DNA of 22,293 bases from a virus. Position numbers and translations under genes: made by a program. Location of the stretch: positions 1 to 22,293 of IMG/VR virus record IMGVR_UViG_3300017786_000166; one strand, written 5' to 3'. The notes under the pieces are model-generated. The model saw only the letters and a program-made list of their open reading frames with translations, had not been told where the DNA came from and did no database searches. Shown piece by piece: positions 8,501-22,293 of this stretch; the stretch's first letter is position 1, and the number at the start of each line of letters is the position of its first letter.

Positions 8501-11500
8501 CAAAAAAATCCTCATCTATTATGGATTCCTTGATTATGATTCCAGTGATACTGGTGATGTAACAACTGCAAACTCATATACTAATTGTGATTACTCTAAT
8601 GAAGTTCAATCAACTGATGGGTTTAGAAATACTGATTTAATTGATTTAAGACCTAGAGTTTCAGATTATAGTGTCACTGAGGGTGGAAATTCACCATTTG
8701 AATTTGATGGAAGAAACTTCAGTAATGGTAATCATAGTTCAAAACACATTTTTGCAAGTGATGAATCAACCACCCTTGCATATGACTACTATCTTGGTAG
8801 AGCAGATAGGGTTTATCTGACTAAAAATGGTGATATTCAAGTTACTCTTGGAGCTCCATCTGATAGACCAGAACTTCCTGATGTTCTTCCTGGTGCTTTA
8901 AACATTGCTAATGTTTTTAATCCTCCTTATCTCTATAATATAGGAGACTCAAGTATTAAATTTATTGAGCACAAGAGATATCAGATGAATGATATCGCAA
9001 GACTTGAAAGAAGAATTAAAAATCTTGAATATTACACTTCACTTAATCTTCTTGAGCAAAATACCCTTAATACTTTTGTTTCTGATGCCAATGGTTTGAA
9101 TAGATTTAAATCTGGCATTTTTATAGATAATTTCTCTTCATATACGCCACAAGATGTCAGTATTGGTATCAGAAATAGTATTGATCCAGTACAAAAGGTC
9201 TTAAGACCTGCACATTACTCAACAGCAGTAAATCTTCAAGTTGGTAGTTCTGCTATTCCAGGAGTTGGAGCAGATGCTCCAGCAAATACTGATGCAAGAT
9301 TTGCATCATTGGCGGGACAAAATGTAAGAAGAACTGGTGATGTTATTAGTTTAAACTATACTGAAGTTGCTGAGATATCTCAACCATATGCTACTAGAGT
9401 TGAAAATGTAACTCCTTTCTTGATTGATTTTTATCAAGGTAGTATTGCATTAAATCCAACCTCTGATGTTTGGGTAAGCACATTACCACCTGAAACTAAT
9501 GATGTTATTATTGAAGGCAATTTTGAGTCAATTGCTGACGCACTTCAAGCAGATGTAACTGATGGTGCTGATGGTTTAAGAACAGGTGTAGCACCTACTT
9601 TATGGAATTCTTGGGAGACCACTGGAATTAGTCTTGATCTTTCAGGATCAACTCAAACTGAAACATTTGCAGCTGCTTCAAGAAGAACTGGTAGATCTAA
9701 TGCTGCTTTAGGTCTACGTGGAAATAATGCAAGTTTAAGCACAATTAATTCAACCTCAATTGATGGTACTATTAATATTGAGCAAAATAGAACAGGTGTT
9801 CAGCAGACTGTAAATGAAATTTTAACAGATGCAGAATCACTTGGTACTAGAATTACCAATAGATCTATCTCCAACTTTATGAGAGAGAGAAATATTGAAT
9901 TTACTGGTACTAGAATGAAACCAAATACACAAGTATTTGCTTTCTTTGATAATGTAAATGTAACCTTAAGATGCACCCCCAAATTGATTCAAATTGCAAT
10001 GAATTCTGGTGTATTCCAAGTTGGTGAAGAAGTTGTTGGAACAGTTCCTGGTTCAGCAGATGCAGGTTCAATAAGATTTAGGGTTGCTGCTGCCAATCAT
10101 AAGTATGGTCCTTTTAATAATCCAACTGACTTCTATGATAGCAATCCTTATTTGAGATCCAATGCTGTTCCTTCAGTTTATTCTGCTCAAAGCACAATAC
10201 TTAATGTAGATACTGTTACACTTGCATCAGAAGAAAATCCAACCTTTACAGGTCACGTTGTTAATACAATGACTCTTCAGGGTCAAACAAGTGGAGCTGA
10301 AGCAACTGTAACAAATGTCAATCTTATTACAGATAGAGTTGGCACATTACAGGGTTGTTTTGAAGTTCCTGGAGAGGATGATTTAACAATACAAACCTTT
10401 AATACAGGAAGAAACGTATTTAAACTTACAAGTAGTGCAATCAATAGTAGAATTCAAGGAACCACTACCACTGAAGCAGAGGAAATTTTCTATTCACAAG
10501 GTGATATTGATACTACAGAAGAAGTGACTCTTTCCCTTAGAAATGCAAGAGTTAGTACAGTTGATGTTCTTCCAGAATCTCAAACTATTGAGTCTGATGT
10601 AAATCTGGAAATTATTAATAGCACAACACTAAGACCAACTCCTCCCCCTCCACCACCACCAGCACCTCCAAGAAGAGGTGACCCACTTGCACAGACCTTC
10701 AAGATTGACTCATCTATTGGAATCTATACCACAAAGGTTGATTTATTCTTCCAAACTAAAGATGATACTCTGCCTGTAACTGTACAGATTAGAGAAACAA
10801 CATTAGGAACACCAAATAATGCTATTCTTGCTTTTTCAGAGGTAACTCTTGATCCTGATGATATTAATATTTCCTCTGATGGTACAGCATCAACAACGTT
10901 TAGATTTGAATCACCTGTATATCTCAGACCAGGTGCTGAATATGCTTTAGTCGTTCTTTCAAGTGTAACAACTTACAATCTCTGGATTTCCAGACTTGGA
11001 GAAGCAGATGTAACTACTCTTGCCACAGAATCAGGTAGAGTTTTAGTAACTGAGCAACCTGTGCTTGGTTCACTCTTTAAATCACAAAACTCTTCAGTAT
11101 GGACTCCAAGTCAATATGAAGATATGAAGTTTGTTATTCATAGATGTGACTTTATAGGAACTGGTAATATTCAGTTCTATAATCCTGAACTTGATGATAA
11201 GAATGAGGCAATTGGACCTGGTGCAATTCTTGCTGAATCTAGAAGCATTAGTGTTGGTATTGGCACAACAGTAAATCAAGGATCTGCTGCAAATCCTCTT
11301 ATTATTGGTAATAAAGTTATCCAAACAAACACTGGAGCATCTGGTTTCCTTAAAAAGTTTGCTGGCATTGCTACAGGTGAACTTAGTGTTACAACTACTG
11401 GTATTGGATTCACACCATCTGCAGGTTCATTTACATTCACAGGAGTTGGTTTAACAGCAGTAACTGGAAGAGGTGTTGATGCAACTGCTGATATAACTGT

Positions 11501-13157: not shown

Positions 13158-13375
13158 GTTTTATTCCAGTTGAGGGCAATAAAAACCTGTTGAGAGATGG
13201 GAAAACTAATGCCCTAATTAATACAAATAAAAATGAATTTAACGCATACATAAAAAATAGGGAGAAACTTTTATCTGATAAAGAAAGAGTTGACTCCCTT
13301 GAAAAAAAAGTTGATAATTTAAAGGGTGATCTAGATGAAATCAAATCAATGTTAAAATCACTAACTAATGGCTAA
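13154..13375 (+). CDS. Small coiled-coil protein of marine T4-like phages, function unknown
   Basis: It encodes 73 residues. The start ATG overlaps the giant gene's TGA (ATGA), which suggests coupled translation and a linked role. The N-terminal half carries 'NLLRDGKTNALINTNKNEF', a pattern I associate with small conserved proteins at this place in marine T4-like phages. The C-terminal part, from about residue 42 (DKERVDSLEKKVDNLKGDLD), has hydrophobic residues at heptad spacing and is very likely a short coiled coil. It could be a small oligomerising virion or assembly factor. No function can be assigned from sequence. The overlaps on both sides and the charged coiled-coil composition make a real gene likely. 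Confidence 0.7.
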   Translation: MSFIPVEGNKNLLRDGKTNALINTNKNEFNAYIKNREKLLSDKERVDSLEKKVDNLKGDLDEIKSMLKSLTNG

Positions 13376-13751
13376 CAATACTATCACCTTTAATCCAAAT
13401 TCCAATACTGCATATGGTGTAAATCTTACCATATTGGAAGGTGCTGACTTTAAGTCTACATTTAAAGTAAATAAAGAAAATAAATCTGCCTTTGATTTAT
13501 CTGGTTATGCAATTCATGGAAAGATGAAAAAAAGTGTTGCTATTGGAGCATCCACTGGTGGAATTCAAGGATTTACTGCTGGTATTACAAGTGCTGCTGG
13601 TGGTGAATTTAATATTTCACTTACAGATACTATAACAAAGGATTTAAAACCAGGAAGATATTATTATGACATTAATGTTGTGAGTTCAGCATCAACAGTT
13701 TATAAAATGGTTTCAGGAAACATAGTGGTAGAAGGGGGTCTCTCCGTCTAA
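13368..13751 (+). CDS. Small beta-rich virion-type protein, function unknown
   Basis: It encodes 127 residues and overlaps the preceding gene by 8 bases. The pattern is a beta-sandwich-like phage protein: 'LTILEGADFKSTFKV', then 'FDLSGYAIHGKMKKS', a Gly/Ala-rich loop, 'GEFNISLTDTITKDLKPGRY' and a final 'YDINVVSS...GNIVVEGG'. The order (gapped strands, 'DLSGY', a 'LKPGRYYYDI' turn, then a last strand pair) resembles N-terminal Ig-like domains of phage baseplate/tail proteins such as BppU. That is a resemblance of pattern only. By position it lies where T4 has wac and gp12, just before gp13, so a neck or fibre accessory role is possible. No signal peptide or membrane segment is seen. Confidence 0.7.
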   Translation: MANNTITFNPNSNTAYGVNLTILEGADFKSTFKVNKENKSAFDLSGYAIHGKMKKSVAIGASTGGIQGFTAGITSAAGGEFNISLTDTITKDLKPGRYYYDINVVSSASTVYKMVSGNIVVEGGLSV

Positions 13752-14647: not shown

Positions 14648-17158
14648 ATGCTCAATCCATATTTTTTAAACAACTCTAAACAAGAGCAAAATCTCATACA
14701 GAGTCTAGTCAACGAACAGTTGCAAATGTATGGGATTGAAATTTTTTACATTCCTAGAAGGTATGTAAAAAAGAATACTGTTATTAAAGAAGTAATACAG
14801 TCAGAATTTGATAATGCATATCCAATAGAAGCGTATCTTGATAGTTATGAAGGATATGGAGGTCAGGGTACATTATTATCAAAATTTGGAATTCAAGAAG
14901 TAGATGATTTGACATTAGTTGTGTCAAGAGAAAGATATGAAAATTATATTACTCCTCTCATCAAAGATGTTCCAAATATTGAATTATCAACTAGACCAAA
15001 AGAAGGTGATTTAATTTATTTCCCATTGGGTGATAGATTATTTGAAATAAATTATGTTGAACATGAGCAACCATTTTATCAATTACAAAAAAACTATGTT
15101 TATACTCTGAAGTGTCAACTTTACAGATATGAAGATGAGGTTCTTGATACTGGTGTAGAAACAATTGATGATGAAATTGAGCAGATTGGATATATTCAAA
15201 AATTACAATTAATAGGTGTAGCAACACCTGCAACAGCATCTGTTATTGGTATTGGAACTGGTACTATTTCCAGTATCAGAATAACCAACATGGGCGGTGG
15301 TTACTCCTCAATACCCACAGTTGCAATTTCTTCTGCACCAGATGGTGGAATAGATGCCAAAGCAGTAGCAGTTCTCACCAATGATTATATTGGTTGTGAT
15401 GGAACAAAAGGTGGAACCATAACTGAGATACAACTTACAAATCCTGGTTTAGGTTATACTGTAAACCCAATCATAACAATAACAGGAGGTGGTGGTGATG
15501 GTGCCACTGCTGAGGTGGTAGGTATTGAAACTATTGGTGGTATTAACCCAATCAGCATTACATCAGGTGGTAGTGGATATGTTGGTGCTCCCACTGTTGG
15601 TATATCAACCCCAATTCATGTTGGAGCAGCAGCAACTGCAACAATTGACATTCCAATTAATCCTGGTGCTGGGTCAAGTGTTATTGATACTACAATCAGT
15701 GTTGGTATTGCTACCTATTTGTTCCCTGGTGGCACTACAGGTGGTGTTTTCTACAAGTCTGCACCCACTGTTACATTCTCAGATCCAACAGGCACAGGAG
15801 ACAACGCAAATGCCACAGCAACAATTCAAGATATTGCAATAAGTGGTGGTAGAGTAAATTCACTTACAATTACTGATGAAGGTAAGTTCTATACATCAGT
15901 TCCTACAGTAACTATTGCTCATCCTGGACTTAGCATTGCTTCTGCTACCATAGGAATTGCTGGATCATCTATAAACCCAAGTTCTATAGCATTCAGTACC
16001 ACAGGTAGAGCATATACAAGTGCTCCAATTGTAGCAATTACCACATCTACTGGACAGGATGCACCAACACAAAATGCTACTGGTATTGCTACTATTCACC
16101 CCATTACTGGTATTATAACAGCAGTTTCATTTGACCCTGCTGATGCTTGGGCAGTTGGAACTTCAGCAACTATTGGGGCAGGATATACTGTTGCTCCTAA
16201 TATTGCTTTTGGGTCACCATCACCTGTTCAAGCAACTGCAACTGCAACAATTTCAATTGGTGGTTCAGTAACAAGTCTTGCTATTGGAAATAGTGGATTT
16301 GGATATATTTCAGCACCAACAGTCACAATATCAGCACCAGCAGGTGTAACAACACAATTTACCGCAACTGGTATTGCAACCATTAGATTTAATTCAATTT
16401 CCACCACAGGAACACTTTCAACCACATCCACATCAATTACTGGTATTACTACAACAGGTATAATTATTGGCGATAGAGTCAGACTTGCTGTAGGACATGA
16501 TAGTTATTATAACTTTGTGCCAGGAGGTACTTTTGTAAGTGGTATTGGTGCTGGATCAATATCACTTAATCAAGCATCAACAAATGTTGGTATTGCAACT
16601 TCAGTATTTGAATTTGGCATTAATCAATGTGGCATTGTAACTGGAATAAATCTAACATATGGTGGAGGAGGATATCTATCTCCACCAACAATCACTATAT
16701 CAAATAATTCTAGATTTAAAAATTATGTTGACATTCAACCAGGTGTAACCACAGCAGTTGGTGTGGCAAATACAAATGCTGCTGGTGTTGTAACAAGTAT
16801 CACAATCACAAATAGTGGTAGTCAATATGTGTTAACACCAACTATTACAATCTCTGAACCTGTGTCAACAAGTACTGGATCATTTATATTCAATGAAGTT
16901 GTAACTGGTGCAAGTTCTGGATCCACTGCAAGAGTTAAGTCTTATGATGCTGTGAACAATATTCTTGAAGTGTCCATTGTTGATGGAACATTTACACCAG
17001 GTGAAACAATAGTTGGTAGCGAATCTGGTGCTAGACATTCAATGAAATCTCAAGATAAGTTTGATACTATTGATCCATTTGCAGATAATGATACCATTGA
17101 GGTAAGAGCAGATGATATTATTGATTTTAGTAAAATAAATCCATTTGGTATGCCTTGA
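14648..17158 (+). CDS. 14: Neck protein gp14 with a large internal repeat array
   Basis: This is the T4 gp14 homologue (head completion/neck). Conserved N-terminal blocks are '[18 protein letters not shown]' (residues 23-40; T4 has MRGVECYYVPREYV), '[14 protein letters not shown]' (61-74; T4 AAYLNSFEGYEGQ) and '[20 protein letters not shown]' (117-136; T4 [20 protein letters not shown]). The last residues, with [11 protein letters not shown] near residue 805, recall the acidic T4 end. T4 gp14 has 256 residues; this one has 836. The difference is an inserted stretch, about residues 205-790, made of about ten Gly-Tyr beta repeats (15260-16861) followed by a '[11 protein letters not shown]' module (16898-17032). 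The core neck role should be kept. The inserted part would be exposed decoration around the neck, which is inference. The stop TGA overlaps the late promoter of gp15. Confidence 0.9.
   Translation: [836 protein letters not shown]
15260..16861 (+). repeat. Array of about ten GGxGY/PTVTIS protein repeats within gp14
   Basis: Units follow the pattern G-x-[IV]-[TS]-[SE]-[IL]-x-[IL]-T-x-x-G-x-G-Y-x-x-x-P-[TI]-[VI]-x-I. Good copies have cores [64 protein letters not shown] and [16 protein letters not shown]. Diverged copies have [16 protein letters not shown] and [16 protein letters not shown]. Between them lie Ala/Thr-rich spacers such as [10 protein letters not shown] and [10 protein letters not shown]. 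Spacing is uneven, so the array diverged long ago or grew by mixed duplication and recombination. Confidence 0.85.
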
Positions 17159-17183: not shown

Positions 17184-18191
17184 ATGTTTGAGCATTTTTA
17201 CAATGAGATCTTTAGATCTGTAATCATAGCATTTGGTTCTCTCTTTAATGGAATTGAGATTCATAAAAAAGATGCCAATGATGATACTTTTAGTATTATT
17301 AAAGTTCCACTTGCATATGGACCTACTCAAAAGTTTTTAGCAAGACTTGAGCAGCAGGCAGATTTAAATAAACCAGTTCAAATGACTCTTCCAAGAATGT
17401 CATTTGAATTTACTGATCTTCAATACGATCCTGTTAGAAAAGCAACTCAAACACAAGCATTTCATCCTGTAACTGATTCAGGAACAAAGACAAAAAAAGT
17501 CTTTATGCCTGTACCATATAATATGGGTTTTGAACTTTCAATAATGACAAAGTTGAATGATGATGCTTTGCAGATCATAGAGCAAATATTACCTTATTTC
17601 CAACCATCTTACACACTTCCAATTAAACTTCTTGGTGATCTTAGAGAAGTTGTAAATGTTCCAGTTCAACTTGAAAATGTAACAATGGAGGATGATTATG
17701 AAGGTAATTTTGACACTAGAAGAGCACTTGTTTACACTCTGAGATTTTCTGCAAAGACAAATCTATATGGACCAATTAGTGATGTTTCAAGTGATGTAAT
17801 CAAAAAAGTACAAGTTGGATATGTATCTGGTCAAAGAACTTCTTCTGGTCAAGCATATACTAGAGATGTTTCATATAGTGTTGTACCAAGAGCAACCAAG
17901 AATTATACTGGAAATGTAGTCACAGAACTTGCTGAAGATGTTGATACTACTGAGACAGTAATAAGTGTTGGTGATGGTTCAAAGGTCACTGTCAAGCAAT
18001 ACATCACACTTGGTGATGAGGAACTGTTTGTTGAATCTATTGATGGCAATAAACTGACTGTGAAGAGAGGACAAGATAAAACAACTCCAAGTAACCATGT
18101 ATTAGGAGCAGATGTCTCTCAAATTGTAGCAGCAGATTCTGGTTTCATTGATATTGGTGATAACTTTGGTTTTGATGGTGGAATGTTATGA
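17184..18191 (+). CDS. 15: Tail sheath stabiliser / tail terminator gp15
   Basis: This is the T4 gp15 homologue. In T4, gp15 forms a hexamer on the end of the tail tube and sheath and makes the joint to the neck. The N-terminus 'MFEHFYNEIFRSVIIAFGSL' matches the T4 start (MFGYFYNSSFRR). The strongest block is 'QIIEQILPYFQPSY' (T4 QIVEQILPYFQPHF), preceded by 'YELSI'-like 'FELSIMTKLNDDALQ'. 'RRALVYTLRFSAKTNLYGP' matches the T4 strand RRRIEWSLTFEVNGWMYPP. T4 gp15 has 272 residues and this has 335. The extra C-terminal part contains a DEELFVES...VKRG...NH..GADV module (18003-18125) also found in two other proteins here. It has its own late promoter, and its stop overlaps the start of gp16. Confidence 0.92.
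   Translation: MFEHFYNEIFRSVIIAFGSLFNGIEIHKKDANDDTFSIIKVPLAYGPTQKFLARLEQQADLNKPVQMTLPRMSFEFTDLQYDPVRKATQTQAFHPVTDSGTKTKKVFMPVPYNMGFELSIMTKLNDDALQIIEQILPYFQPSYTLPIKLLGDLREVVNVPVQLENVTMEDDYEGNFDTRRALVYTLRFSAKTNLYGPISDVSSDVIKKVQVGYVSGQRTSSGQAYTRDVSYSVVPRATKNYTGNVVTELAEDVDTTETVISVGDGSKVTVKQYITLGDEELFVESIDGNKLTVKRGQDKTTPSNHVLGADVSQIVAADSGFIDIGDNFGFDGGML
18003..18125 (+). other. Added C-terminal module of gp15
   Basis: The segment reads ITLGDEELFVESIDGNKLTV and continues KRGQDKTTPSNHVLGADV. Its pattern (Glu-rich turn, two strands, RG, then H-x-x-GA-x-V) recurs in the protein ending at 3989 (1302-1421) and in the giant protein (11991-12140). It lies beyond the part of gp15 that aligns with T4. Confidence 0.6.
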
Positions 18192-18559
18192 CAGATGATA
18201 GTATCATAGACATTACACCAGGTAAGGAAAAACCTGCTCATCTTACCAAGAATGATGTAGAAAAGGATTATGAATATACAAGGGGTAATCTATACTCTAT
18301 TATTGAAAAGGGTCAAGAAGCAATTAATGGTATTCTAGAACTTGCCCAAGAAAGTGAGATGCCAAGAGCATATGAAGTCGCTGGTCAGTTGATTAAGAAT
18401 GTTGCTGATGCTACTGATAAACTAATGACCCTTCAACAGAAGTTAAAGGATGTAGAAGAAGAAAAAGTTAGTAAAGGTCCAACCACAGTTAATAATGCTT
18501 TATTTGTTGGTTCAACTGCAGAACTACAAAAATTATTGAAGAATAATACTGATAAATAA
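18188..18559 (+). CDS. 16: Small terminase subunit gp16
   Basis: This is the T4 gp16 homologue. The small subunit forms rings that recognise phage DNA and stimulate the large terminase gp17 during packaging. The central block 'NLYSIIEKGQEAINGILELA' followed by 'PRAYEVAGQLIKNVADATDK' is the family signature; T4 has the same PRAYEVAG pattern. It is followed by a coiled-coil stretch, 'LMTLQQKLKDVEEEK'. Length is 123 residues against 164 in T4, as usual for marine T4-like phages, with shorter ends. The ATG overlaps the gp15 stop (ATGA), so it is probably translated by coupling. In T4, gp17 follows directly. Here two other virion-type genes follow instead. Confidence 0.9.
   Translation: MTDDSIIDITPGKEKPAHLTKNDVEKDYEYTRGNLYSIIEKGQEAINGILELAQESEMPRAYEVAGQLIKNVADATDKLMTLQQKLKDVEEEKVSKGPTTVNNALFVGSTAELQKLLKNNTDK
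18551..18558 (+). promoter_or_regulatory. T4-type late promoter (GATAAATA) before the 906-residue gene
   Basis: GATAAATA overlaps the gp16 stop codon (18557-18559), as the copy at 17157 overlaps the gp14 stop. It is followed by a 40-base leader to the ATG at 18599, longer than the other leaders. The leader carries GGGA (18567) and TCCC (18577), which could pair around a six-base loop. Confidence 0.75.
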
Positions 18560-18598: not shown

Positions 18599-21319
18599 AT
18601 GTCTAAAAAAGAGGATTTGCCGTCAATAAATGATTATCTAGAGGATAATGAACTGCCCTCTTACAAGAATTTTATTGAAGAAGGGAAAGAATTACCATCA
18701 GTAGAAGAATATAAGACTTATCCTCTAGAAGAGGACCAAACAATTGAAGATGCAAATGGAAACACATTTGCAGAGGTTATTGACGTTGTTAAAGCACCAG
18801 AATGGCAGGAACTGGTTAAATTAGTCAATGATGTAAGAAAAGATATACCTGAATTACCTGAAATTAAGTCATATGATGATGAAATTGGTCAGATAAGTGA
18901 AAAAATTGCAGAAATTCAAGAAAATTTCTCTCAGTATGACCTAAAAAGTGATAAAATTTATGATCTAAGGGCAAAAAATGAAGAATTTGAGGTAAAATTA
19001 ACTGAAATTGAACAAAAAATACCTGAAGTGCCAGAGGTTAGGTACTATGAAGGTGATATTGAGTTAATTTATGGTAAAATATCAAGAATTAAGGAAGAAA
19101 TTGAGTCTCTTCCTGAGGTAAAATACTACGAAAATGATCTTGATGTCTTAAAATCAAGAATTGAAGAGGTCAACAACAATATTCCTACATTTCCCAAGTG
19201 GGTTAATGAGGTAAATGAAGTACCTGACTTCTCTTGGATTGGTAAAACCTTTGGTGTTATTGATGATGACTTTAAAAATGTAGAAACTCACTTTGATTTA
19301 ATAAAAGATACTATTAACTCAAGAGTTTCTGAATTAATTGAAACAATTGAAGTCAAGGATTTTGAGCAAAAAGTTGATTTTAAAGATTTTAAGAATGTAT
19401 ATTCAGAATCTAAGGACAAAATTTATAAAGAACTTAAAGAAATCACTCTTAGAGTTTATGACCATAAGCATGAATTCAAGGATGATGATAGAAAATTAAA
19501 GAAAGCACTTTTAGGTGAGCAAAATAAATTAAAACAAACTCTTGAAACAGAAATTAAGAGGATTAATAAGGAGAGTGTAAATACAGATGAGACAATTCTG
19601 TCATATTTTACTAATTTAAAAGAAGAGGTAAGTAAAAAGTTTGATTCTCTTCCAGAGATTAAAGATTATGACAATGAAATTGACTCACTTAGGCAAGATG
19701 TAAAATTTGTCAAAGTTAGTGTTAAAAGTTGTCTTGAAGATATTAAAAAAATATCTGCAGATATAAAAAAAGCACAAGTTGACCTTGCTGAGGGTCTGCT
19801 CAATGAACCACCTAGTGAAAAAGAGACTGCTGGAGGACAAACTGATCCATTAACACCAATGGATCAAAAGTTTGCAACCCTTGATGATCTGTCAAAACAC
19901 TACAGGTTGTTTATAAACAGGGTGCAAACTCAACTTTCCACTATGGGTGGTGGTGGAGCAGGATTCATCAAAGACCTTGATGATGTTACTTTTGATCAGA
20001 CCACAGGAACAAATAAATTATTAATTTATGATGGTGCTAAGTGGGTTGGTATTGCTAGCACAGCAATTCAAGGTTCTGTAGGTGCTGCTGGAACTTGGGC
20101 AGTAACCTCTGTTGGTATTCACACCACTAAAAATGTTGGTATTGCTACTACAGCAAGAAGTAATTTTGCTTTATATGTAGAAGGAAATACATTTATTGAT
20201 GGAAATATCAGTGTTGGTGGGACAATCACCTATGAAGATGTAAAAAATGTTGACTCTCTTGGAATTGTTACAGCAAGGTCTGGTATTAGGATTGGAACTG
20301 GAGGAACAGTAGGTCCTGTAGGGTCTGGTATTGTCACATATTTTGGTGATGGTTCACAACTGACAGGCATTATTGCTGGTGTTGGAATTCAATCTGGTTC
20401 TACTCGTATTGGTACTGGATTCACTGATTTTAAATTTACTGGTGCTGGAGTTTCTAGTATTGTTGGTTCAGGAGCCACAGTCACTATTGATATTCCTGCC
20501 ACTACAATTAAGAGACAGGTTGCCACAGCATCAGGAATTACAACAAACTTCACTGTCACTGGTGGATATACTGCTGGGTTCATTGATGTATTTTTAAATG
20601 GTGTGAAGCAGAGAAGTGGAACTGACTTTACTGCAACAAATGGAACCACAGTAACCATGGTTCCTGCTATCAATGATGGTGATGTTCTTGAATTGCAAAT
20701 ATATGAAAATTTAACTGTTGCAGCACAAGAAAGTGGTATTACAACTGCTTCAGTTCGTGATGCCATTCAAGGTTATTATGGATATACCACTGACTATTAT
20801 ACAGTTGGTGTAGCAAATACCACTCAAGAGATTGGTGCTGGAACAACCACAATGATTATGCCTAAGGTAGCATCTGATGGAATATATCAATATTTGCCTA
20901 CTATTATGACTGGTGTTGGCACTAATCCATATGTTGGAACTGGCGCAACTGTAGGTACAGGACAGACTGAGTTTTCACTTGCAGGACTGTCTTCAGGTTC
21001 TTCCTGCATTGTAAGAACTGCACTTGCATACAACCCTGATGATGATAACTCAAACCTTGATGTTCAGTTAAAGTTTACAACTAATACTGCCACTCAAGGA
21101 ACTGGATTGACTAACTTTACAATTAAAAAAGAACAGGCAATCATTATGAATGAGGGTGCAGACCAACAATATATAAGTGAGAATCTATTTTCTTTCTTTG
21201 TTGGAACAACATTGGAGGGAACCTCATATGCAAATGCAGGAAGTTTCAATATTGAAGTTATTCCTACATCTGAGGGAGAACTTGAAGTCCTAGCAGTAAC
21301 TGTCAACGTAGTAGCATAA
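18599..21319 (+). CDS. Coiled-coil and tail-fibre-like virion protein (between gp16 and the next structural gene)
   Basis: At 906 residues, this has two unlike halves. The N-terminal 400 or so residues are charged and helical. They hold three short tandem units starting LPS (18617-18724), then four LPE[IV]-x-x-Y units at about residues 86, 144, 171 and 351, between long coiled-coil stretches. The C-terminal half is Gly/Thr-rich beta structure. It contains 'LDDVTFDQTTGTNKLLIYDG', an 'ALYVEGNTFIDGNISVGGTI' segment, 'YEDVKNVDSLGIVTARSGI' (20231-20371) and a 'GYTAGFIDVFLNGV...TDFTATNGTTV' domain (20528-20707). I know the last two as recurring modules of marine phage tail and fibre proteins. A structural role is likely; a rod with distal beta domains is inference. 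No chaperone or peptidase motif is seen. It has its own late promoter. No in-frame start exists between the gp16 stop and 18599, so the start is firm. Confidence 0.75.
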   Translation: MSKKEDLPSINDYLEDNELPSYKNFIEEGKELPSVEEYKTYPLEEDQTIEDANGNTFAEVIDVVKAPEWQELVKLVNDVRKDIPELPEIKSYDDEIGQISEKIAEIQENFSQYDLKSDKIYDLRAKNEEFEVKLTEIEQKIPEVPEVRYYEGDIELIYGKISRIKEEIESLPEVKYYENDLDVLKSRIEEVNNNIPTFPKWVNEVNEVPDFSWIGKTFGVIDDDFKNVETHFDLIKDTINSRVSELIETIEVKDFEQKVDFKDFKNVYSESKDKIYKELKEITLRVYDHKHEFKDDDRKLKKALLGEQNKLKQTLETEIKRINKESVNTDETILSYFTNLKEEVSKKFDSLPEIKDYDNEIDSLRQDVKFVKVSVKSCLEDIKKISADIKKAQVDLAEGLLNEPPSEKETAGGQTDPLTPMDQKFATLDDLSKHYRLFINRVQTQLSTMGGGGAGFIKDLDDVTFDQTTGTNKLLIYDGAKWVGIASTAIQGSVGAAGTWAVTSVGIHTTKNVGIATTARSNFALYVEGNTFIDGNISVGGTITYEDVKNVDSLGIVTARSGIRIGTGGTVGPVGSGIVTYFGDGSQLTGIIAGVGIQSGSTRIGTGFTDFKFTGAGVSSIVGSGATVTIDIPATTIKRQVATASGITTNFTVTGGYTAGFIDVFLNGVKQRSGTDFTATNGTTVTMVPAINDGDVLELQIYENLTVAAQESGITTASVRDAIQGYYGYTTDYYTVGVANTTQEIGAGTTTMIMPKVASDGIYQYLPTIMTGVGTNPYVGTGATVGTGQTEFSLAGLSSGSSCIVRTALAYNPDDDNSNLDVQLKFTTNTATQGTGLTNFTIKKEQAIIMNEGADQQYISENLFSFFVGTTLEGTSYANAGSFNIEVIPTSEGELEVLAVTVNVVA
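18617..18724 (+). repeat. Three short tandem LPS-x-x-x-Y/F units at the N-terminus of the 906-residue protein
   Basis: The units are LPSINDYLEDNE, LPSYKNFIEEGKE and LPSVEEYKTY. Each is 10-13 residues with an acidic tail. They match in form the later LPEIKSYDDE, VPEVRYYEGD, LPEVKYYEND and LPEIKDYDNE units of the same protein. Confidence 0.7.
20231..20371 (+). other. NVDSxGIVTARSG / GDGSQLTGI tail-fibre module
   Basis: The segment runs from YEDVKNVDSLGIVTARSGI to YFGDGSQLTGI. In marine phages this kind of unit often repeats in tandem in fibre proteins; here one clear copy is seen. Confidence 0.6.
20528..20707 (+). other. VFLNGVxxxxGTDFTATNGTTV phage tail domain
   Basis: The segment holds GYTAGFIDVFLNGVKQRSG, TDFTATNGTTVTM and then GDVLELQIYE. 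This order (YxxGxxxVFLNG, DFTATNGT, GD-x-[VL]-E[VL]) is a widespread beta domain of marine phage tail proteins. A more distant relative may be 'LFVFINDILQIPG...ITFNEAP' near 2600 in the first gene. Confidence 0.65.
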
Positions 21320-21320
21320 A

Positions 21321-22293
21321 ATGTCAAAACCAGTAAAAATCTTTGGAGACGCAGCACTAGGTTCTCTTTTCTTTGAAGGGGTAACAATTCCTCCTGCACC
21401 TTTAGGTGGTATTGTTGTAGCAGTTGAAAATCCTAATCGTCCAGGAAAGATTAGAATTACTAGATCAGACCTGCTGCAGAAAGATGGTGTTTCTCCAAGA
21501 GTTCTTTTCAAAAGAATGCGTCCTACTAGAGTTAGGAATAAACAGAACCAACAACTTATTGGAGATCTTGGGTTTAGTCTGGCGCAGGTAATAAGTTATA
21601 TCAATGATGAGGCAAATAGAAAAGCAAATGAAATTGACTTCCAAAAAAATGGTTCTTCAGTTGGTAGTGGTAACACAGTAAACTTTACTGGTGGTATTGA
21701 AGATGTTACAGTTTCTAATGATGTTGCGACAATCGCTATTAATCAGGTTGGTATTACAACCAGTGGTGGTTATGTTGGCACAGGTATTACATTATTTGAT
21801 TTTAGAGGTAGTGGTGTATCTACTGTTACTTCAATCGTTGGTGGCGCAACAACAATATTCTTTGAGGGAGGTAGTGCTGGCAACCCTGTAACTAGTGGCA
21901 TAGTAACTGGAGCAGGGTCTACAACACTTAGACTTACCTTACAGGATTCAACAAATGTTAATATTGATGTAACCAATCTGAGAACCACAACAGCAATTGG
22001 TTCATCCACAAACTACTTCTTCCTCAATAATGGAGCACAACTTTCTAGTAATGACCATGACATTGATGGTGGTGTTACATTCTATAATCAAAAGTTGAGG
22101 AGAGGAGAAGAAATCGTATTCTCAACTCCTGGTAATGCTGCTCACATTGGTATCTGGAATGGTGGTAATGGTATAACTGGATCTGCCAATGTTCGTAACA
22201 AATCCAACTGGCAGGTCAAGTGGCAGTACAATCATTCTGCTCTTGTTTGGGAAGCAGGTAACCAAAATGTCAATTCTACTGGTGTAGAATTGA
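21321..22293 (+). CDS. Virion-type protein, 3' end outside window
   Basis: An open frame starts at ATG 21321, one base after the previous stop, and stays open for 324 codons to the window edge. The N-terminus (MSKPVKIFGDAALGSLFFEG) leads into 'NPNRPGKIRITRSDLLQKDG' and a basic stretch, 'KRMRPTRVRNKQNQQLIGDL', around residues 70-90. The rest is Gly/Thr/Ser/Val-rich like the other structural genes, with 'GITLFDFRGSGVSTVTSIVG'. It then has a Trp-rich part near the edge ('HIGIWNGGNG', 'NWQVKWQYNHSALVWEAGN') that looks like a compact beta domain. I do not recognise the family with certainty. The one-base gap suggests cotranscription with the preceding fibre-like gene. A fibre or decoration role is inference. 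Confidence 0.7.
   Translation, partial: MSKPVKIFGDAALGSLFFEGVTIPPAPLGGIVVAVENPNRPGKIRITRSDLLQKDGVSPRVLFKRMRPTRVRNKQNQQLIGDLGFSLAQVISYINDEANRKANEIDFQKNGSSVGSGNTVNFTGGIEDVTVSNDVATIAINQVGITTSGGYVGTGITLFDFRGSGVSTVTSIVGGATTIFFEGGSAGNPVTSGIVTGAGSTTLRLTLQDSTNVNIDVTNLRTTTAIGSSTNYFFLNNGAQLSSNDHDIDGGVTFYNQKLRRGEEIVFSTPGNAAHIGIWNGGNGITGSANVRNKSNWQVKWQYNHSALVWEAGNQNVNSTGVEL

Follow-up and report, generated by a model that had tools for sequence, protein, structure and literature searches.

This study concerns protein X, a 906-residue fibre-like protein encoded directly behind gp16 in the 22,293-base virus record IMGVR_UViG_3300017786_000166 (the whole of which is called the window here), the genes of which match a T4-like virion module. 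Protein X is probably a fibre shaft or adaptor subunit of T4-like marine phages, with a multivalent N-terminal arm that docks to another protein of the particle. The short proline motifs strung along its chain are two different things: class A motifs, with the consensus L-P-S-[VIY]-x-[DE]-[FY]-[IL]-E-E, lie in an acidic N-terminal arm, while class B motifs, with the consensus [LIV]PE[VI][KR]xY and then D or E, are probably joints of the shaft (Table 1). If the arm motif is indeed a short, portable and repeated docking motif, a 10-residue peptide would provide a direct and cheap handle on the socket protein.

Two Motif Classes in One Chain

In the first-pass annotation of this DNA, X was described as carrying at least seven copies of one evenly built motif, LP[ES]xxx[YF]. 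The repetition is real when set against shuffled sequence: shuffles of residues 1–412 contained 0.02 matches on average and reached six in 0 of 5000 cases, and when only the 47-residue arm was shuffled, three LPSxxx[YF] motifs arose in 0 of 100,000 cases. The exact matches, however, number six (residues 7, 19, 32, 86, 171, and 351; positions 18617 to 19649), and the seventh copy is the V-variant VPEVRYY at residue 144. Nor are the copies evenly built, since the N-terminal three are of the LPS type and lie 12–13 residues apart, whereas the internal ones consist of PE, then [KR]xY, then D/E, and are separated by 27 to 180 residues. The AlphaFold2 (AF2) model of X, built from an alignment of 33 family members (A2), also places the two sets differently, with a mean predicted local distance difference test score (pLDDT) of 56.5 and a predicted TM-score (pTM) of 0.23. 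That all seven sites belong to one motif class is ruled out by the differing consensus, spacing, predicted structure, and phyletic distribution, and the split into classes A and B has a footing beyond the weak AF2 model. Telling the arm motif from the rod joint corrects a pitfall, namely that of two look-alike motifs in one protein.

The N-Terminal Arm

Comparison with homologues divides the motifs, in that the LPS trio is kept while the internal copies also occur together with other arms. Among 57 unique N-termini, collected with no filter on the motif, 55 have exactly three LPS motifs; one (L020) has two, with LLS in place of the first, and one (L104) has five, apparently by tandem expansion of an 18–19-residue unit. 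Many loci are overlapping extracts of the same contigs, and “unique” refers here to the first 55–60 residues. The spacing in this set ranges from 11 to 19 residues, and of its 172 class A motifs, 167 have D or E at position 6 and 157 have F, Y, or W at position 7. A wider census found three motifs in 76 of 83 unique arms, two in five, four in one, and five in one, but admitted only arms with at least two LPS motifs and hence cannot show absence; under this rule 45 of 194 loci were without a complete LPS arm. In A2 the class A motif columns (L, P, S, and [YF]) have a mean identity of 0.92, compared with 0.73 for the middle residues of the motif and 0.58 for the remaining arm columns, and random column sets were as conserved as the motif columns in 0 of 20,000 permutations. 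The codons at the class A sites vary among 63 unique arm DNAs (5–6 Leu, 4 Pro, and 3–4 Ser codons per site), and therefore selection acts on the protein. Judged from these sequences, the class A motif is under selection as a peptide, within a changeable acidic arm with drifting spacing and copy number.

Outside X, the class A motif with D/E at position 6 was found in none of the other open reading frames (ORFs) of the scanned loci, all 11 of the entries listed being X. In SynMITS9220M01, the genome of which was covered in full as four pieces, no protein except X has a cluster of the motif, and a search of phages with the arm alone gave, beyond relatives of X (AG-345-E15, and SynMITS9220M01 with a second query), only matches with E-values of at least 4. 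No description of the LPS arm was recognised in literature searches, in which the motif letters themselves were not queried.

The arm may be pictured as a flexible acidic tether with three short motif copies, each of which would fold into a short amphipathic helix on the partner. The sequence S-x-x-[DE] is a helix capping box, and the Ser of the motif together with the Asp/Glu three residues later could form such a box, with residues 1 (Leu), 4 (hydrophobic), 7 (aromatic), and 8 on one face of the helix. Each copy would dock into a repeated or multi-subunit site of another particle protein, so that several weak contacts could hold one fibre. AF2 predicts, with low confidence, mini-helices of 4–6 residues at 10–15, 23–27, and 35–38, each right after an LPS. 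This placement and the capping box would equally suit LPS motifs that are local structural caps only, i.e. Pro/Ser helix N-caps without any binding role. Such a restricted role is nevertheless quite improbable: with motif starts 11–19 residues apart and helices this short there is no coiled coil in the arm to cap, the copy number ranges from 2 to 5, relatives can have the same shaft behind an entirely different arm, and the aromatic residue that nearly all motifs have at position 7 is superfluous for a capping box. The first-pass annotation made no distinction among the copies, for which it suggested helix caps or docking peptides. Docking is favoured for the N-terminal trio, because it is kept in homologues, lies in a fast-changing acidic arm, and is spaced too closely to cap coiled-coil segments, whereas the internal copies behave as joints of the shaft.

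The Shaft and Its Probable Joints

The long helices of the AF2 model span residues 93–112, 119–140, 151–169, 178–194, 212–258, 261–292, 297–349, and 358–399, and the four class B sites sit in non-helical gaps before helices, both with low confidence. Hydrophobic residues recur along the shaft with a period of 3.45–3.7, and the predicted helices are broken at the class B sites, but with low pLDDT. Mean identity in A2 is 0.92 for the class B columns and 0.65 for the other coiled-coil columns. In the more distant relatives AG-345-O18 and AG-341-P01 (32–33% identity), class B copies number seven each and follow one another in steps of 27–30 residues, behind an arm of another type. Because the motif recurs every 27–30 residues in relatives with other arms, class B is, on sequence grounds, part of the architecture of the shaft and independent of the arm, and the internal [LIV]PE[VI][KR]xY motifs may be non-helical joints of a segmented coiled-coil rod. 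In one relative (L095) the shaft of X contains, at about A2 columns 366–390, a near-exact tandem duplication of the 11-residue unit SIVSEQNKLKQ, in keeping with a hendecad coiled coil.

No relatives of X with a solved structure were found by phmmer, and Pfam gave sub-threshold coiled-coil matches only. A structure profile search returned nothing but coiled-coil matches with E-values of 0.0018 or worse, which were judged compositional, and a match of 18 of the 33 A2 members to phrog_77 (SbcC-like) was judged to be coiled-coil similarity.

Replacement of the Arm on Homologous Shafts

A first scan of viral contigs for X yielded 49 loci, and a profile scan found at least 580 relatives, of which the best 80 were kept. 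Full-type relatives are few in the phage collection, namely SynMITS9220M01 and the single-cell contig AG-345-E15, which are 45–47% identical to X of the window in the best tblastn alignments. The tail-fibre family phrog_28263 gives a profile match over the shaft in 33 of 33 A2 members (best E-value 8.2e-34), and phrog_17885, likewise a tail-fibre family, matches the C-terminal parts of the SynMITS9220M01 (8.5e-146) and AG-345-O18 (3.5e-156) proteins.

Homologous shafts following gp16 carry different arms, the arm having been replaced and the shaft kept. Among 81 loci, 43 have LPS arrays, 22 PS[DEQ][FY]F arms, and nine other arms, while four are without a junction ORF and three have a cut N-terminus; among the loci with an arm, gp16 was visible upstream in 43 with LPS arrays, 20 with PS[DEQ][FY]F arms, and two with other arms. 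Class B motifs number 3–5 with LPS arms, 6–9 with PS[DEQ][FY]F arms, and 5–9 with the others. By eye, the other arms tend to contain two short Pro motifs (PSDFF then APKxFFGE, or SPxEL twice). It is conceivable, if doubtful, that all of these belong to a modular and multivalent address system for the fibres of marine T4-like phages, in which arms of 2–5 proline-capped mini-helix motifs, exchanged among homologous shafts at a single genomic site, decide the socket on the particle; LPS arrays, PSDFF with APKxFFGE pairs, and SPxEL pairs would be its arms, and it could be likened to the short linear motif arrays of eukaryotic adaptors.

Alternatively, the LPS arm could serve only while the fibre folds, by binding a phage enzyme or a dedicated assembly chaperone, and be without a role in the finished virion. 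The conservation and copy-number data would fit this equally well, and the folding of some T4-like fibritins has been described as dependent on helper sequences or on downstream genes (PMC3797505). A conserved gene of ~110 codons follows X in L076, SynMITS9220M01, AG-345-O18, and AG-341-P01 (it belongs to phrog_1276 and lies at 9925–10257 in L076 and 84972–85304 in SynMITS9220M01). The chaperone explanation is still unlikely, since this 110-residue gene also stands beside X proteins with a PSDFF arm, and relatives of its L076 copy occur in 89 phage records, a number well above that of the records with X, so that it is not specific to the LPS arm. In the window itself, X is followed by another gene.

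Several points weigh against docking of the arm to a protein of the particle. No partner, scaffold, or chaperone of the arm was identified in this analysis, and an arm that binds an assembly chaperone, or folds back on the fibre, would give the same conservation. Within one chain the motifs are unlike at position 4, which is occupied by Y, I, or V, and the three sites may accordingly be non-equivalent. The AF2 model is of low confidence, and its mini-helices and breaks are accordingly weak evidence. Class B joints are absent from the S-SKS1 and S-B05 relatives, which share only the junction. X is a candidate virion protein, its earlier description as such being supported by the PHROG tail-fibre matches and by the position of its gene in the gp13-gp14-gp15-gp16 module (the virion proteomes of S-SM1, S-PM2, and Syn9 are discussed in PMC3037559).

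Comparison With Known Systems

T4 fibritin (gpWac) has been described as attaching through a short and conserved N-terminal region, behind which follow a segmented, loop-containing coiled coil and a highly variable C-terminus (PMC3797505). X probably has the same overall plan, with a shaft that is segmented in the low-confidence model, and its gene lies within the gp12–gp16 neighbourhood, beside gp13-gp14-gp15-gp16, as might be expected if X were a neck whisker, i.e. the functional counterpart of fibritin docked on gp13/gp14. This identity is rather unlikely. No homology between X and T4 Wac was detected by hhalign of A2 (probability 0.2, 23 columns aligned), and wac is located between genes 12 and 13 in T4, whereas the X gene comes after gp16. 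Furthermore, domain III of T4 gp13 has been described as fibritin-binding (PMC12270204), and the stretch with this domain is mostly missing in seven of seven aligned cyanophage gp13s, that of the window included, an alignment that tests the socket and not binding. The arm of X also differs in being a tandem motif array, which is not seen in the Wac sequence. By analogy, X may work like fibritin without being claimed as one. Another known solution is the neck fibre of A-1(L), in which, as described in PMC10966104, a trimeric, folded domain sits on a pentadecameric ring.

The class A motif also bears a likeness to the capsid-targeting sequence of the T4 internal proteins IPII and IPIII, in that LPSYKDFIEE resembles MKTYQEFIAE in the core [ST]-Y-[KQ]-[DE]-F-I-x-E. 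In T4 this sequence is removed by the head protease gp21. The T4 capsid-targeting sequence has been described (PMC3012670), and if the arm were such a signal, X or a precursor of it would be packed in the head. The hits of a broad pattern were confined to X in SynMITS9220M01 and to IPII and IPIII in the scanned stretch of T4; however, this pattern is post hoc, made after both motifs had been seen, and a narrower pattern has no match in SynMITS9220M01. Moreover, the T4 sequence occurs just once, right at the N-terminal end of a protein inside the head, whereas X has 2–5 motifs along a fibre arm, and X is a long rod with relatives that end in tail-fibre modules, unlike the internal proteins of T4. 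Packaging into the head is, on this comparison, very improbable.

The cyanophage tail fibres of phrog_28263 and phrog_17885 (S-CAM7 gp223 and the X-like protein of AG-345-O18) have a homologous shaft, LPEVKYYD joints, and the junction HYRxFxxRxQxQLxxxGGGG, but carry a PSDFF/PGDFF arm rather than an LPS array, with seven shaft joints in AG-345-O18. SynMITS9220M01_093 (QJT70106.1, hypothetical protein) and the AG-345-E15 protein agree with X in the gene order after gp16 and in the three LPS motifs, and have five class B matches each; SynMITS9220M01_093 differs in ending in a phrog_17885 module.

Junction, Variable Region, and Tip

The junction behind the shaft, DPLTPxDQKFATLxDLxxHYRLFINRxxTQLSTMGGGG...DLDDV, is common to proteins of S-SKS1, S-B05, and S-CAM7, and more weakly to a second downstream fibre in some loci. 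This second coiled-coil fibre gene (L076 11932–13059, and in L022, L072, L073, and L074) starts with MKE[IV][ST]LDDLKVLVESL and also has a QLxxxGGGG junction. Closed members of the X family are 580–1326 residues long, and in most relatives the alignment to X of the window stops near residues 518–664. The tip of the window protein (its last 200 residues) differs from the phrog_17885 module of the SynMITS9220M01 and AG-345-O18 copies.

This tip was found in 11 sources, in eight of which a gene homologous to window 21321–22292 lies at most ~20 bases behind it; the remaining three extracts break off within the tip, and their longer versions carry the next gene (8 of 8 readable cases). The two-part cassette of tip and next gene was noted in the window (20714–22292), L013, L053, L072, L073, L074, L076, and L127, and the carriers of the tip also include S-B05 and S-H68. 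The carriers have three types of N-terminus, namely the LPS array (window, L013), MKE[IV][ST]LDDLKVLVESL (L072, L073, L074, and L076), and TPSQFFND (S-B05, S-H68). Because tip and next gene travel together behind three arms, the tip is probably what links X to the next gene's product and would act as the connector between them, and this cassette predicts which proteins make the distal fibre. A model of the tip (pLDDT 50.9, pTM 0.54), the fold matches of which are a lead only, is closest to the BC2L-C lectin (Z 9.8, 2.6 Å over 118 residues), followed by a short tail fibre domain of A-1(L) (Z 9.0) and the needle knobs of phages HS1 and Sf6 (Z 8.9). A TNF/C1q-like tip, as modelled, hints at a trimer.

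Gene Order and Features of the Locus

The module in the window runs gp13 (phrog_211), gp14 (phrog_460), gp15 (phrog_227), gp16 (phrog_445), and then X, which starts ~40 bases past the end of gp16; the gene after X is another fibre-like gene, cut by the end of the record. The window also contains baseplate wedge matches (phrog_2885 and phrog_438) and a 2523-residue protein that matches phrog_358, a family without an annotated function. Among the loci where X has a complete start and the DNA before it is present, gp16 lies directly upstream of X in 102 of 102, several of which are extracts of one contig, and ends at most 150 bases away in 84 and, by coordinates, within ~460 bases in the other 18. 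The gp16–gp17 interval has been described as a hot spot for variable genes (PMC3037559). The idea that every cyanophage has an X orthologue at this position is ruled out, as other genes follow gp16 in six phages (S-B43, S-SCSM2R, S-SZBM1, ACG-2014e, P-SSM5, and Syn33).

Table 1. Features of protein X and its neighbours in the window.
Feature	Positions	Strand	Evidence
Protein X, 906-residue fibre-like virion protein: arm, shaft, junction, variable region, tip	18599..21319	+	ORF; PHROG tail-fibre matches
Acidic N-terminal arm, residues 1–47 (14 D/E, 5 K/R)	18599..18739	+	AF2 pLDDT mostly ~50 or lower
Arm motif 1, LPSINDY, class A	18617..18637	+	Pattern match, census, AF2
Arm motif 2, LPSYKNF, class A	18653..18673	+	Pattern match, census, AF2
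Arm motif 3, LPSVEEY, class A	18692..18712	+	Pattern match, census, AF2
Conserved arm-to-shaft segment, QTIEDANGNTF...VNDVRKDIP	18737..18850	+	Alignments
Segmented helical (coiled-coil) shaft, residues 85–400	18851..19798	+	AF2 helices with breaks; hydrophobic period 3.45–3.7
Shaft joint LPEIKSY, class B	18854..18874	+	Pattern match, AF2
Shaft joint VPEVRYY, class B, no exact LP[ES] match	19028..19048	+	Pattern match, AF2
Shaft joint LPEVKYY, class B	19109..19129	+	Pattern match, AF2
Conserved block IPTFPKWVNEVNEVPDFSWIGKTFGVIDDDF	19181..19273	+	Mean column identity 0.81 for residues 196–228; alignment
Shaft joint LPEIKDY, class B	19649..19669	+	Pattern match, AF2
Shaft-to-beta junction, DPLTP...HYRLFINRxQTQLSTMGGGGAGFIKDLDDV	19844..19987	+	Alignment
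Variable region, replaced between relatives	19988..20713	+	Lengths, alignment ends
C-terminal tip, TNF/C1q-like jelly roll (low-confidence model)	20714..21316	+	Model, fold matches, neighbourhood
Next fibre-like gene (cut by record end), travels with tip	21321..22292	+	Homologues behind tip
gp16, terminase small subunit, upstream neighbour	18188..18559	+	phrog_445 2.6e-50; 102/102 loci
gp13 neck protein, without T4 fibritin-binding segment	13780..14643	+	phrog_211; alignment

Two further observations concern the neck genes of the window. The 836-residue gp14 (14648–17158), the best stretch of which to the head-closure family is residues 2–242, has a long C-terminal extension of repeats of the GGGY..PTV type; the L076 copy is 460 residues long, so that the extension varies. 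A 127-residue ORF before gp13 (13368–13751) matches phrog_1084, a family with no known function, and phrog_3304, the annotation of which is L-shaped tail fibre protein assembly.

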